Shown piece after piece: positions 27,922 through 31,863 of a stretch of 32,652 nucleotides of DNA (its first letter is position 1; every line of letters begins with the position of its first letter). The notes under the pieces were generated by a model. The model did not search any database. It had not been told where the DNA came from and was given only the letters and a program-made list of their open reading frames with translations. The stretch comes from Anaerolineae bacterium (GTDB lineage: Bacteria > Chloroflexota > Anaerolineae > B4-G1 > SLSP01): positions 1-32,652 of the forward strand of contig JALOOJ010000019.1 in assembly GCA_025454475.1 (NCBI GenBank), written 5' to 3'. A program made the translations under genes and the position numbers.

Positions 27922-28188
27922 TTACTGCTGCAGCTGGTGAATCTGGCTCATCAGACGTGACTTAAGCCGTGCCGCTTTGTTGGGATGAATGACGTGCTTG
28001 CGAGCGGCTTTGTCCAGCTCGCTTGCCGCACGTGGCATCCAGCTCTGAGCGGTGCCATAGTCACCGGCCTCGATTGCCTGGCGGACGGTTCTCACGGCGC
28101 CACGCATCTTGCCCTTGATGTACCGATTGCGCAACCACTTGCGGTAGGAATTGCGGATTTGCTTCTTTGCTGCCTGAGTATTCGCCAC
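27922..28188 (-). CDS. rpsT: 30S ribosomal protein S20
   Basis: An 88-residue basic helical protein that binds 16S rRNA early in 30S assembly. It begins MANTQAAKKQIRNSYRKWLR and has the family block IHPNKAARLKSRLM near the end. The start codon is GTG, preceded by GGAGGAGT at good spacing. It is monocistronic, with a promoter at 28233-28261 and a distal terminator. Confidence 0.96.
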   Translation of the reverse strand: MANTQAAKKQIRNSYRKWLRNRYIKGKMRGAVRTVRQAIEAGDYGTAQSWMPRAASELDKAARKHVIHPNKAARLKSRLMSQIHQLQQ

Positions 28189-28232
28189 GCTTACTCCTCC
28201 AAGACCTGCTGTTTCTCACACATCGAAATGGG

Positions 28233-28261
28233 AGTATACCGCATGTCCGCGATTTTGTCCA
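28233..28261 (-). promoter_or_regulatory. Promoter of rpsT
   Basis: TGGACA (28261-28256), a 17-base spacer and TATACT (28238-28233) on the minus strand. It is divergent from the solute-binding protein promoter. Confidence 0.7.
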
Positions 28262-28302
28262 GCGCGGCTCGCGAGGAAAGGTGACCGCACCTGGAACACG
28301 CT

Positions 28303-28330
28303 TTGACACCGGATGTCGCGGTCCTATAAT
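28303..28330 (+). promoter_or_regulatory. Consensus promoter of the amino-acid ABC genes
   Basis: Exact TTGACA (28303-28308), a 16-base spacer and exact TATAAT (28325-28330). The expected transcript start is about 28338, just ahead of AAGGAGG. Confidence 0.85.
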
Positions 28331-28364
28331 GCAGGCATTGTCCCTACAGAAGGAGGTCCGTCTT

Positions 28365-29114
28365 ATGAAACGCTGGTCGCTGGTTTTCATGTCTGTGTTG
28401 ATGATCGTCGCCGTATTGGGAGCCACAGCCTGTAAGCCGAAGGATACTAAACTGGTCGTGGGTACCTCGGCGGACTATGAGCCATTCGAGTTCGTCGCGG
28501 CGGATGGCAGTTACACTGGGTTCGATGTCGAGCTGATGGAGGAGATCGCCAAGCGTCTCGACATGGAGATCGAGTGGCAGGATATCGCCTTCGATGGCTT
28601 GATCGGGTCCCTGCAAAGCGACAAGATCGACGCCATTATTGCGGCGATGAGTGCAACGCCGGAACGCGAGGAGCAGGTTGACTTCACCGAGCCCTATTTC
28701 ATCGGAGCGGATGCAATCATTGTAGCTTCAGGGTCCGGGATTGAGATCGCTCAGAACGCAGATATGGCGGGACATCGTGTTGGTGTGCAGACGGGCACAA
28801 TCCAGGAAGAGTGGGTCGATGCAAATATCGATGCTGAAGTCTCGCGCTATGAGCGCGCTGAACAGGCCATTATGGACCTGAAGAGCGGGCGCATTGACGT
28901 TGTCGCCATGGACTACTATGCCGCACAGGCCTTTATCACCCAGGGAGGCATCGATCTCGCGTTGAAGACCGAGTTCTCAGGCGAACATATGGCTATCGCG
29001 GTGAAGGAAGGTAACACCGAGCTGCGTGCGAAGCTTGACGACGCCATTGACGAGCTGGCGGCCGAGGGCTTCGTAGAGCAGTTGGCGATGAAATACCTGT
29101 CCGGCGGCGAATAG
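28365..29114 (+). CDS. Amino-acid ABC transporter solute-binding lipoprotein (SBP_bac_3)
   Basis: A 249-residue secreted lipoprotein that captures polar amino acids and presents them to the permease. The signal peptide starts MKRW and ends in a lipobox with Cys23 (GATAC). The family-3 signature is clear: VGTSADYEPFEFVAADG, then YTGFDVELMEEIAKRL (about 48-63), and the hinge and ligand region MSATPEREEQVDFTEPYF. I chose the ATG at 28365 because it follows AAGGAGG and gives a proper signal peptide; the frame extends further upstream but without family similarity. The permease gene follows after 10 bases. No ATP-binding subunit gene lies next to them. Confidence 0.95.
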   Translation: MKRWSLVFMSVLMIVAVLGATACKPKDTKLVVGTSADYEPFEFVAADGSYTGFDVELMEEIAKRLDMEIEWQDIAFDGLIGSLQSDKIDAIIAAMSATPEREEQVDFTEPYFIGADAIIVASGSGIEIAQNADMAGHRVGVQTGTIQEEWVDANIDAEVSRYERAEQAIMDLKSGRIDVVAMDYYAAQAFITQGGIDLALKTEFSGEHMAIAVKEGNTELRAKLDDAIDELAAEGFVEQLAMKYLSGGE

Positions 29115-29124
29115 GCGTAGCGAA

Positions 29125-29784
29125 ATGACTGCCGCGATCCTGCGCGCACTCCCCTATATGGTAGGGGGGATCGGCTACACGGTGCTGATCACGATCATCG
29201 CGCTCGTGGTCGGATTCGTGATCGGTACGCCGATAGCGCTGGCTCGGGTCTATGGTGGTCGTTTGGCTCGGGGCCTGGCGTTGGGCTACACCGTGGTGCT
29301 CCGCGGGTTCCCATCGTTGGTGGTGCTTTTCATCGCCTACTATGTACTCGCCAGTGCTGTTAACCTACCGCCGTTCCTCGCAGGCTGCGCGGCGCTGGGC
29401 GTCTGCAGTAGCGCCTATCAGGCGGAGATCTTCCGCGGCGCCATCCAGAGTGTCACTGCCGGACAGATGCTGGCGGCGAGAGCACTCGGGATGACGCAAG
29501 GTCAGGCGGTGTTAAGCGTCATCCTGCCCCAGGCCTTGCGTAACGCGATCCCCGGATGGTCCAATGAGGCTGCCGTCGTGGTCAAAGACTCATCTCTCGT
29601 GTATGCAGTGGGGTTGGCCGAGCTGATGCGGCGGGCGCAGCAGATCAACGGGACACTTCACGAGCCTTTGCTTATATTCTCGATCACCGGGGTCCTGTAT
29701 TTCATGCTGACTTTCGCGACCAACCGGATTCTTGGCTGGGTGGAGCTGAAAACGCGTATTCCGGAGGTCGTGGAGGCGCGGTAA
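29125..29784 (+). CDS. Amino-acid ABC transporter permease (HisM/GlnP type)
   Basis: A 219-residue inner-membrane permease with about five hydrophobic segments, the usual size. The EAA loop that contacts the ATPase is visible as AARALGMTQGQAVLSVILPQ (about 124-143), and the N-terminal block VLRGFPSLVVLFIAYYVLAS matches the P-x-L-V/x-Q-L-F family block. It forms a dimer in the membrane and moves the substrate from the neighbouring solute-binding protein. The gene starts 10 bases after that gene, with only a weak ribosome site, so translation may be coupled. The operon ends at a hairpin without the expected ATPase gene. Confidence 0.95.
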   Translation: MTAAILRALPYMVGGIGYTVLITIIALVVGFVIGTPIALARVYGGRLARGLALGYTVVLRGFPSLVVLFIAYYVLASAVNLPPFLAGCAALGVCSSAYQAEIFRGAIQSVTAGQMLAARALGMTQGQAVLSVILPQALRNAIPGWSNEAAVVVKDSSLVYAVGLAELMRRAQQINGTLHEPLLIFSITGVLYFMLTFATNRILGWVELKTRIPEVVEAR

Positions 29785-29869: not shown

Positions 29870-30469
29870 CTACGGTATTCCCCGTTCTTCGGGTTTCTTG
29901 TCTGTCTCTTCCACAGCAGGCTCAGCCGGGCGCCCATAGAAGCAGAGCATCACACTGCCATAGGAGCGCTGGTCAAAAAGCACGAGGTTGGTCAGTGCGA
30001 CAGGCTCGTACTCGGTGGGGTTGATCTGGACGATGACCCACCCGTCTTCCTGGAGCCACGCAGGCCTACTATCGATGTGTTGCAGGGTGCGCATCCACCA
30101 GCCACGGTACTGGGGGGGCGCGACAAACACATAGTCGAAGGGCTGGGGCGTGCCCTCAAGGTATCGGAATACGTCTGCTCGCACCAGATTGGCGTTTGCC
30201 CCCAGCCGCGTTGTCGTCAGGTTGCTCTCTATGGCCCGTAACGCAGCCGGGCCCTGTTCCACGAAGACGGTTTTTGCGGCCCCTCGGCTGAGCGCCTCGA
30301 TGCCCACCTGGCCGGTTCCTGCGAAGAGATCCAGGAAGCGCGCCCCCTTGATGTTGAGCTCAATGATGCTGAACAGGGCTGCCTTGGCCCGGTTGGTCAT
30401 AGGGCGTGTCCCGGGGCCGCGAACCGAAGCAAGTGATCTCCCTTTGGCTGTGCCGGCGATGACGCGCAT
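29870..30469 (-). CDS. rsmD: 16S rRNA (guanine(966)-N2)-methyltransferase RsmD
   Basis: A 199-residue SAM-dependent enzyme that methylates G966 of 16S rRNA. It starts MRVIAGTAKGRSLASV, as RsmD proteins do, followed by TRPMTNRAKAALFSII. The SAM motif I is FLDLFAGTGQVGIEALSRGA (about 45-64) and FVEQGPAALRAIESNL follows. The catalytic (N/D)PPY motif appears as APPQY (about residues 118-122), so the first acidic or amide residue is Ala. Because the rest of the fold is intact, this is more likely a lineage variant than a dead enzyme. The C-terminal acidic tail is variable. It lies 17 bases downstream of the Amt-like gene and may be co-transcribed. Confidence 0.9.
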   Translation of the reverse strand: MRVIAGTAKGRSLASVRGPGTRPMTNRAKAALFSIIELNIKGARFLDLFAGTGQVGIEALSRGAAKTVFVEQGPAALRAIESNLTTTRLGANANLVRADVFRYLEGTPQPFDYVFVAPPQYRGWWMRTLQHIDSRPAWLQEDGWVIVQINPTEYEPVALTNLVLFDQRSYGSVMLCFYGRPAEPAVEETDKKPEERGIP

Positions 30470-30486: not shown

Positions 30487-31863
30487 CTACTCAGTCTCAC
30501 CCTGCGTCGCGGGAGCCGGGCCCAATAACAGTTCCTGACTTGGCCGAACCGACAGGCGCTGCGTCCGCCTTGACCAGCGCCCCATCAGGCTAGGGCTCGC
30601 GATGATGCCGATGATCCCACCCCACAGTAGACCCCAGAGCCCCACGGCAACGAGCCCGGTGAGTTGAGCCGACAGTTGCTGCGCGTCGCCGCGGATGAAG
30701 ACGCTCGCGACGCCGAGGCTCGGAACGACGTCCTCTGCAAATAGGCCAACCCCATTCCAGCCGAACCCCCATCGACCACTTGCCAACAGGGTCAAGCCTA
30801 CCAAGCCGACTAGACCGCTTGTCAGTGCCAATGCAGTTGCAGACGCTGCGTCGCACACCCTCAGATAGACCCGCACGGCATAGTGGAGGAACGGGAACGC
30901 CAGGCCCGCAAGTAGCCCTGTGATCAGCGCGCCCCAAGGCGGCAGGAATGGCGCACAGCTCAGTGCTGCCCCCCAGCCGGCCGCCAGTCCGAGGGCAGCC
31001 AACAACGTCTCCGGTTTGCCCTCCACCAGCCAGGCATAGAGCTGGGCGGTCACGATCGCGCCGGCCATTGCCAGGAGTACATTGATCGCGGTGTGCTCCC
31101 AATCGAGGATGGCGCCGGCGATATGAAAAGGGCGAGACAAGCTCCAGCCCAGCCACCCCAGGCCCATGAGCAGCGCGCCCACGTTCGCCACAAGAGGTGC
31201 GTAGGTAGATGGGGACTCAACCGCATCACCGGATTCGCCGCGGGGCTGCAGGAGCAGGATCGGTAGGACGATGAGCCCGGGAAGCCACAGCACCAGTGTG
31301 CTACCGCCGAAGTCGACGAATCCGTAACCTAGACCCAGCGTGTCGCCGAGATGAGCGAGCCATCCGCTGCCCCACATCCAACACGCCGCAACGGGCATGA
31401 TCACGGCGCCGGTCAGCGTGCCGGCAACCACCATTAGCCAGCGGCGTGTGTGGGCCAATGCCAGAGTCACGATGAGCACGGCCGAAGCCACGAGGGGAAG
31501 ATACGTCAGAAAGAGCTGGAACACCGCGGATTGTTCAGCTGCCCCGGAGAGGAAGAAGCCGGCAAGCCCGACAATGCCCCAGCCTGAGTCGCCTGGGATG
31601 ATGGAGAAGAGGGCATCGAGACCCTGCAACGAGGCATCTTGCGGGTAGACGGCTTGCGCACCACCGAGGTGCAGGGCGAATCCGACGGCCCAATATCCCA
31701 GTGTCGCAAGCGCCAGAGCTGTGGCGGCAGCCGGGGCCACGCGCCGCGCGTGGGCAGGTGGCAGTCCGCCCCAGGTGAGTAGGAGCAGTCCTATGGGGAG
31801 TAGATACCCCCAAACCCAGGTGGCGTCTATGGCCGTGGCCAGGATGTCCGTCGTTGGTCCCAT
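30487..31863 (-). CDS. Degenerate ammonium-transporter-like membrane protein
   Basis: A protein of about 458 residues with around eleven membrane helices, matching Amt/Mep/Rh topology. The helix-3 region FFLSGAAEQSAVFQLFLTYL aligns with the Amt S-G-A-x-A-E-R block. ACWMWGSGWLAHLG and YGFVDFGGSTLV align with the family's W-x-W-G-x-G-W and D-F-A-G-x-x-V-V-H blocks. Yet the twin-histidine positions are lost: VVH reads VLW, and the second His zone reads QLSAQLTG. Transport by the normal Amt route is therefore doubtful; it may be a sensor or a paralogue. I chose the ATG at 31863, preceded by GGAG; longer in-frame starts lie upstream. It is the probable partner transcript of rsmD. Confidence 0.78.
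   Translation of the reverse strand: MGPTTDILATAIDATWVWGYLLPIGLLLLTWGGLPPAHARRVAPAAATALALATLGYWAVGFALHLGGAQAVYPQDASLQGLDALFSIIPGDSGWGIVGLAGFFLSGAAEQSAVFQLFLTYLPLVASAVLIVTLALAHTRRWLMVVAGTLTGAVIMPVAACWMWGSGWLAHLGDTLGLGYGFVDFGGSTLVLWLPGLIVLPILLLQPRGESGDAVESPSTYAPLVANVGALLMGLGWLGWSLSRPFHIAGAILDWEHTAINVLLAMAGAIVTAQLYAWLVEGKPETLLAALGLAAGWGAALSCAPFLPPWGALITGLLAGLAFPFLHYAVRVYLRVCDAASATALALTSGLVGLVGLTLLASGRWGFGWNGVGLFAEDVVPSLGVASVFIRGDAQQLSAQLTGLVAVGLWGLLWGGIIGIIASPSLMGRWSRRTQRLSVRPSQELLLGPAPATQGETE

Follow-up and report, generated by a model that had tools for sequence, protein, structure and literature searches.

The RhD and RhCE proteins of the Amt/Mep/Rh superfamily lack the pore histidines and, as family members kept for non-transport roles, offer a likeness to the protein described below. 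Across the superfamily, the twin histidines are described as highly conserved and important for selectivity in the excerpts available of PMC10433425; the same excerpts state that the F215W replacement abolishes AmtB transport and that AmtB without the twin histidines has also been reported as channel-like, passing hydrated NH4+. According to the available part of PMC3647058, the AmtB variant H168A/H318A conducted neither ammonia nor methylamine in vivo, with negative growth tests, and S263 is a pore residue that hydrogen-bonds the substrate in simulation. The variant H168D/H318E passes both NH4+ and K+ (PMC9040831, in part). Since these AmtB mutant reports do not fully agree, some residual unselective ammonium flow through a His-less pore is possible. 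Natural departures from the canonical pore include the fungal proteins of the Mep1 type, in which Glu replaces the first His (excerpts of PMC9040831 and PMC3647058), and the sensor Ks-Amt5, a family member with an occluded pore that retains the binding site, the Phe gate, and the twin histidines (PMC10433425, in part). In a literature search of partial coverage, none of the listings showed a study of a prokaryotic clade of Amts without the histidines.

Sequence and Predicted Structure of the Amt-Like Protein

The stretch of DNA analyzed here (the window; 32,652 nucleotides) comes from a metagenome-type assembly of 369 contigs. An initial annotation, made from the sequence alone, had placed in it an Amt-like protein devoid of both pore histidines, at coordinates that proved correct:

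30487..31863, minus strand: amt-like gene, 458 aa with 11 predicted TM helices (ORF translation, PF00909, AlphaFold2)

The coding frame (30490-31863, minus) comprises 458 codons, with the ATG at 31863, preceded by a GGAG upstream, and the stop at 30487-30489. The fold blocks of Amt/Mep/Rh noted earlier were recovered as a PF00909 match over residues 46-426 (93.5 bits against a Pfam cut-off of 23.2, E value 1.5e-26), and the first phmmer matches were Ks-Amt5 (6eu6, 7.8e-10) and AfAmt1. No further Pfam domain scored above its cut-off in the 458-aa protein, which thus has no fused signal-output domain. With the AmtB-type model TIGR00836 of NCBIfam, the protein scored 96.6 bits, below the cut-off of 343.3, as did all five tested members of the clade described below.

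The structure model that the initial annotation had called for was obtained with AlphaFold2 as a monomer and showed an Amt fold; the class-wide alignment gave a pLDDT of 88.9 and a pTM of 0.89, and an earlier model from a 28-row alignment a pLDDT of 75.3. The best solved structural match was Ks-Amt5 (6eu6; Z 43.4, rmsd 2.7, 364 residues aligned), tied at the top with Mep2, AfAmt1, and another sensor Amt, Sd-Amt1 (8qj3/8qj4; Z 42.4), and AmtB (1u77) matched with Z 41.5. VIA-align also returned urea transporters at Z ~12, taken as a common helical arrangement. By sequence and predicted fold, the protein is a member of the Amt/Mep/Rh superfamily, sharing with AmtB-type transporters (PF00909, TIGR00836) the fold, 11 TM helices, D160, W148, W212, and helix-packing Gly residues.

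Pore Residues

Pore sites were assigned by MAFFT alignment to E. coli AmtB (from NC_000913). All features lie on the minus strand:

31492..31494, minus strand: Leu124, replacing AmtB Phe107 of the Phe gate (alignment, codon position)
31372..31374, minus strand: Trp164, equivalent to AmtB Trp148 of the extracytoplasmic vestibule, kept (W in 57/66 clade rows)
31312..31314, minus strand: Asp184, equivalent to AmtB Asp160, kept (D in 66/66 clade rows)
31288..31290, minus strand: Leu192, replacing the first pore His, AmtB His168 (His in 12/66 clade rows)
31144..31146, minus strand: Trp240, replacing AmtB Phe215 of the Phe gate (W in 43/66 clade rows)
31132..31134, minus strand: Arg244, replacing AmtB Ser219 of the ammonium recruitment site (alignment)
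30991..30993, minus strand: Leu291 at AmtB Ser263, Arg in 61/66 clade rows and Asn in sister Amts; the sole Leu among the 66
30826..30828, minus strand: Ala346, replacing the second pore His, AmtB His318 (His in 16/66 clade rows)
30685..30783, minus strand: TM10-TM11 loop (361-393) on the extracytoplasmic side, exceeding the AmtB loop in length, with the clade motif GxGWNG (model, alignment)

Both pore histidines are lost, as had been proposed: the window's DFGGSTLVL aligned with AmtB DFAGGTVVH, setting Leu192 at H168, and Ala346, within ATALALTSG, stands at H318. The Gln that had been read at the second His site was misplaced. Conserved Gln residues lie further on (Q396 and Q400, equivalent to AmtB Q351 and Q355) and are shared by canonical relatives. 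No alignment placed a histidine at either pore site, so the outcome named beforehand as refuting the claim did not arise. At the S1 recruitment site (W148/D160/S219), Trp164 and Asp184 are retained and Ser is replaced by Arg244; the equivalent of AmtB W212 is kept as well. The C-terminal residues E390, G393, L394, D395, G400, and Y404, present in 93-100% of sister rows, are lost.

Unlike AmtB-type transporters, the window protein is therefore without the twin histidines, the Phe gate, S219, and the PII-coupling C-terminus. As judged from these alignments, the His loss is part of a wider dismantling that also took the gate, S219, and the C-terminal PII-coupling region. Whereas the Mep1-type proteins carry an acidic swap in a working transporter, both His sites are uncharged here and the gate is gone; in contrast to the sensor Amts, the protein has lost the very features that Ks-Amt5 retains and has no fused output domain.

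Phylogeny of the Clade with Repeated His Loss

A profile search matched 273 of 396 genomes of the class, taken to be Anaerolineae, at 1e-5, canonical Amts included, and 264 of 400 genomes of the phylum at 1e-20. Representatives were aligned in 116 rows, and the tree was built from 97 of these after 19 near-copies or fragments had been dropped, excluding the F107, H168, F215, and H318 columns. Every degenerate protein fell into one clade of 66 rows (support 100/100, stem 0.55), sampled from Chloroflexota genomes and mostly from the window's class; two of its rows, L152 and L153, came from genomes filed outside the class. Outside the clade, 29 Amts of Chloroflexota, together with two canonical rows for EcAmtB and the AmtB of the window genome itself, all keep F107, H168, F215, S219, and H318. 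F107 was thus found in 29/29 sister rows versus 0/66 clade rows.

Within the clade, both histidines were present in 11 rows, one in 6 (1 + 5), and none in 49. Over the whole tree, H168 and H318 each underwent at least 11 changes, and a single origin of the His-less rows was rejected (p-AU 9.6e-57). His loss is the natural direction since the outgroups all have His; the change counts themselves give no direction. The twin-His sites showed 26 pair combinations among the 66 rows, and 64 of these carried no charged residue at 12 pore positions. Joint loss of the two histidines appeared associated in a Fisher test uncorrected for kinship (4e-8), whereas a kinship-aware test was not significant (median p 0.125, 6 pairs).

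Orthologs in the Order and Selection

In the order, 38 of 48 genomes held a match at 1e-5, none with internal stops; the G023 match covers just 34 residues, at the end of a contig. Four of the 38 genomes yielded fragments only and six were not fetched, leaving 28 full-length copies. Both histidines were absent from 28/28 of these, so that similar His-less Amt proteins, a search for which had been suggested, do exist; site 168 held Tyr, Leu, Phe, or Met and site 318 Gly, Ala, or Thr. The AmtB positions 160, 163, 214, 215, and 220 read D, G, G, W, and P in all 28 members, W215 and P220 being new, and 63 columns were invariant. Pairwise dN/dS was 0.07-0.20 in 11 of 12 pairs, the twelfth being saturated; these values are rough because several pairs have dS >1. 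A scan of a genome collection returned two relatives only, both Chloroflexi MAGs, one of them filed as Thermoflexales.

Conservation was compared between sister rows and clade as a percentile, 0 being most conserved (medians for pore sets, means for sides). From sister rows to clade, it went from 8 to 82 at the twin-His sites, from 8 to 46 at eight core pore sites, from 38 to 60 on the cytoplasmic side, and from 55 to 44 on the extracytoplasmic side. Extracytoplasmic columns, which make up 64 of 369 overall, rose from 9 to 20 among the 50 most conserved. Residues typical of the clade include Pro in TM1 (97%, 64/66), in TM3 (82%), and at AmtB 220 (88%), Arg at AmtB 263 (92%, 61/66, versus Asn in 97% of sister rows), Trp95, His180, and the GxGWNG loop, whose W369 occurs in 94% of the clade and faces a gap in 20/29 sister rows. 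The window protein departs from two of these residues, with Leu291 in place of Arg and Tyr180 in place of His. On these alignments, constraint has moved and now lies at the extracytoplasmic face.

Genomic Neighborhood

Directly downstream of the amt-like gene lies a gene that served as a synteny marker:

29870..30469, minus strand: rsmD-like gene (named by eye)

It was present in 7 of 41 loci and directly downstream in 6 of these 7, the frames touching or overlapping by at most 301 b. A convergent thpR-like gene (2'-5' RNA ligase/phosphodiesterase type, by eye) was found in 23/41 loci. Both-His and His-less clade members adjoin this same gene, which argues for one ancestral locus. The thpR-like and rsmD-like neighbors speak for vertical inheritance rather than function. 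Neighbor clustering of the 41 loci revealed no operon partner and no metabolic gene hinting at a substrate. Among the 25 largest neighbor clusters, a response-regulator-like one (by eye) occurred in 6/41 loci, at a distance of >5 kb in the two loci examined for position. On the far side of the rsmD-like gene, and convergent with it, the window has a pair of genes for an amino-acid-type ABC transporter (by eye, a binding protein and a permease; 28167-29784, plus strand).

Canonical Amt and PII

A PF00909 match was present in 37 of the 48 order genomes, and only four (the window's own, G001, G002, and G031) held a canonical Amt (at least 319 bits), so the Amt-like protein stands alone in 33 of the 37. 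PII was matched in 3/48 order genomes, leaving 45/48 without, and in 3/17 of those with ≥90% completeness and ≤5% contamination; such absences are approximate because many genomes are incomplete. In the class, 144 of 199 genomes had a PF00909 match, 68 with a canonical copy and 76 with a low-scoring match only, one of the latter (G206) being a fragment that is probably canonical.

The check for a canonical amt-glnK pair proposed in the initial annotation came out positive in the window genome. On contig C156 (6.4 kb), a canonical amtB (L001, 290-1891) lies beside a glnK that is the genome's sole PII match, and the window's amt-like gene has no linked glnK. The PF00909 and PII searches detected neither canonical amtB nor PII in the other four genomes of the genus. 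GC content was 62.8% in the fetched part of the amtB-glnK contig versus 61.9% in the window. This contig may have been wrongly binned into the window genome.

Functional Interpretation

The fold has been kept, the AmtB transport machinery has been dismantled, and the gene is retained by purifying selection. The proteins form a natural, conserved His-less Amt lineage that belongs to the fold superfamily but does not qualify as an AmtB-type transporter, and the window protein, kept by selection despite the loss of its pore residues, probably does a job other than ammonium channeling. It could well be a neofunctionalized Amt, a reading to which we give an even chance, which would no longer be bound to conduct ammonium selectively under PII control and would have been retained for a task at its extracytoplasmic face. 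Such a task is favored because constraint now lies there and the twin-His sites vary freely. The ancestor would first have lost F107 and the PII-responsive tail; the pore would then no longer have been selected for selective ammonium/H+ transport, and its positions would later have changed by drift to uncharged residues, either small or bulky. Retention of the protein may be owed to an extracytoplasmic face made up of the vestibule (W148, D160, GGGWLAxLG, GHG) together with the enlarged lid loop (GxGWNG) between TM10 and TM11. This face could bind something outside the cytoplasm, making the protein a receptor or scaffold, or could act as the gate for some other small solute; the protein would function without PII. 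More tentatively, and with somewhat less than even confidence, the Amt fold may have been co-opted once, near the base of the Chloroflexota clade, for extracytoplasmic binding or another non-ammonium function, the twin-His pore then being abolished repeatedly and in parallel and the protein becoming the sole Amt in whole lineages without PII-AmtB nitrogen control.

Certain points speak against neofunctionalization. The protein is the sole Amt-family member in most order genomes, and such cells could profit from a route for ammonium. Canonical sister Amts share many of the conserved extracytoplasmic residues, which may be structural. The conserved pore Arg of the clade (AmtB 263) hints at a remaining role for the pore interior, although Leu stands there in the window protein. 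In the neighbor clusters of the 41 loci, no partner gene supports signaling. Since 11/66 members retain both histidines, some of the clade may still conduct ammonium.

The protein could still serve as the cell's ammonium route, as a His-free, PII-free, channel-like Amt for NH4+/NH3 that is tolerated wherever ammonium abounds and selectivity and regulation count for little. Its solitary occurrence in 33 of the 37 order genomes with a PF00909 match would fit such a role, as would the excerpted reports of hydrated NH4+ passing through AmtB without the twin histidines (PMC10433425) and of NH4+ and K+ passing through H168D/H318E (PMC9040831), and the retention of D160 (66/66) and W148 (57/66) in the clade. 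However, growth tests of H168A/H318A were negative (PMC3647058, in part), F215, a site at which AmtB does not tolerate Trp (PMC10433425, in part), is Trp in the window protein, and the S219 site is Arg; the clade replacements are mostly uncharged rather than acidic (64/66 rows without charge at the 12 pore positions), and a leaky channel should be costly, yet no constraint is visible at the twin-His sites. We regard this route as unlikely. Facilitation of another small solute, be it a neutral molecule, a gas, or an anion, with selectivity arising from the clade's own residues, appears comparably doubtful. Near-fixed changes such as Arg 263 (61/66) and Pro in TM1 (64/66) and TM3 (82%), together with Trp 215 (43/66), are in its favor, and S263 of AmtB hydrogen-bonds the substrate in simulation (PMC3647058, in part), but 26 pair combinations at the twin-His sites are unexpected for a selective pore, the window protein is without the clade Arg, and no metabolic neighbor in the 41 loci points to a substrate.

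That the gene is a decaying relic of an ammonium transporter, an option left standing by the initial annotation, is very improbable. The catalytic residues are lost and the genome also carries a canonical amtB-glnK; against this, the low dN/dS (0.07-0.20) and the order-wide retention (38/48 genomes, no internal stops) led us to reject it, and the 63 invariant columns among 28 sequences and the confident predicted fold likewise oppose decay. Least probable of all, a non-conducting subunit might enter mixed trimers with canonical AmtB, by analogy to RhCE/RhD, anchoring subunits with RhAG in red cells (PMC10769835, in part), and the window genome does encode both proteins. RhD and RhCE need their conducting partner, whereas most order genomes have no canonical one; an obligate AmtB partner was rejected as the general role because 33 of the 37 order genomes with a PF00909 match are without a canonical Amt.

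The clade with repeated His loss and its intact sisters provide matched pairs for asking what the motif is for and what other uses the fold has. 'Ammonium transporter' calls based on PF00909 can be wrong in Chloroflexota, the match being low-scoring only in 76 of the 144 class genomes.

Some individual sequences deserve mention. Genome G117 contains two clade copies, L105 of the both-His type and L077 without His. At L169 (genome G672, contig C129), two Amt genes lie ~9 kb apart, of canonical pore type as far as aligned. L187 and L191 carry the canonical twin His and Phe gate but Phe at W148.
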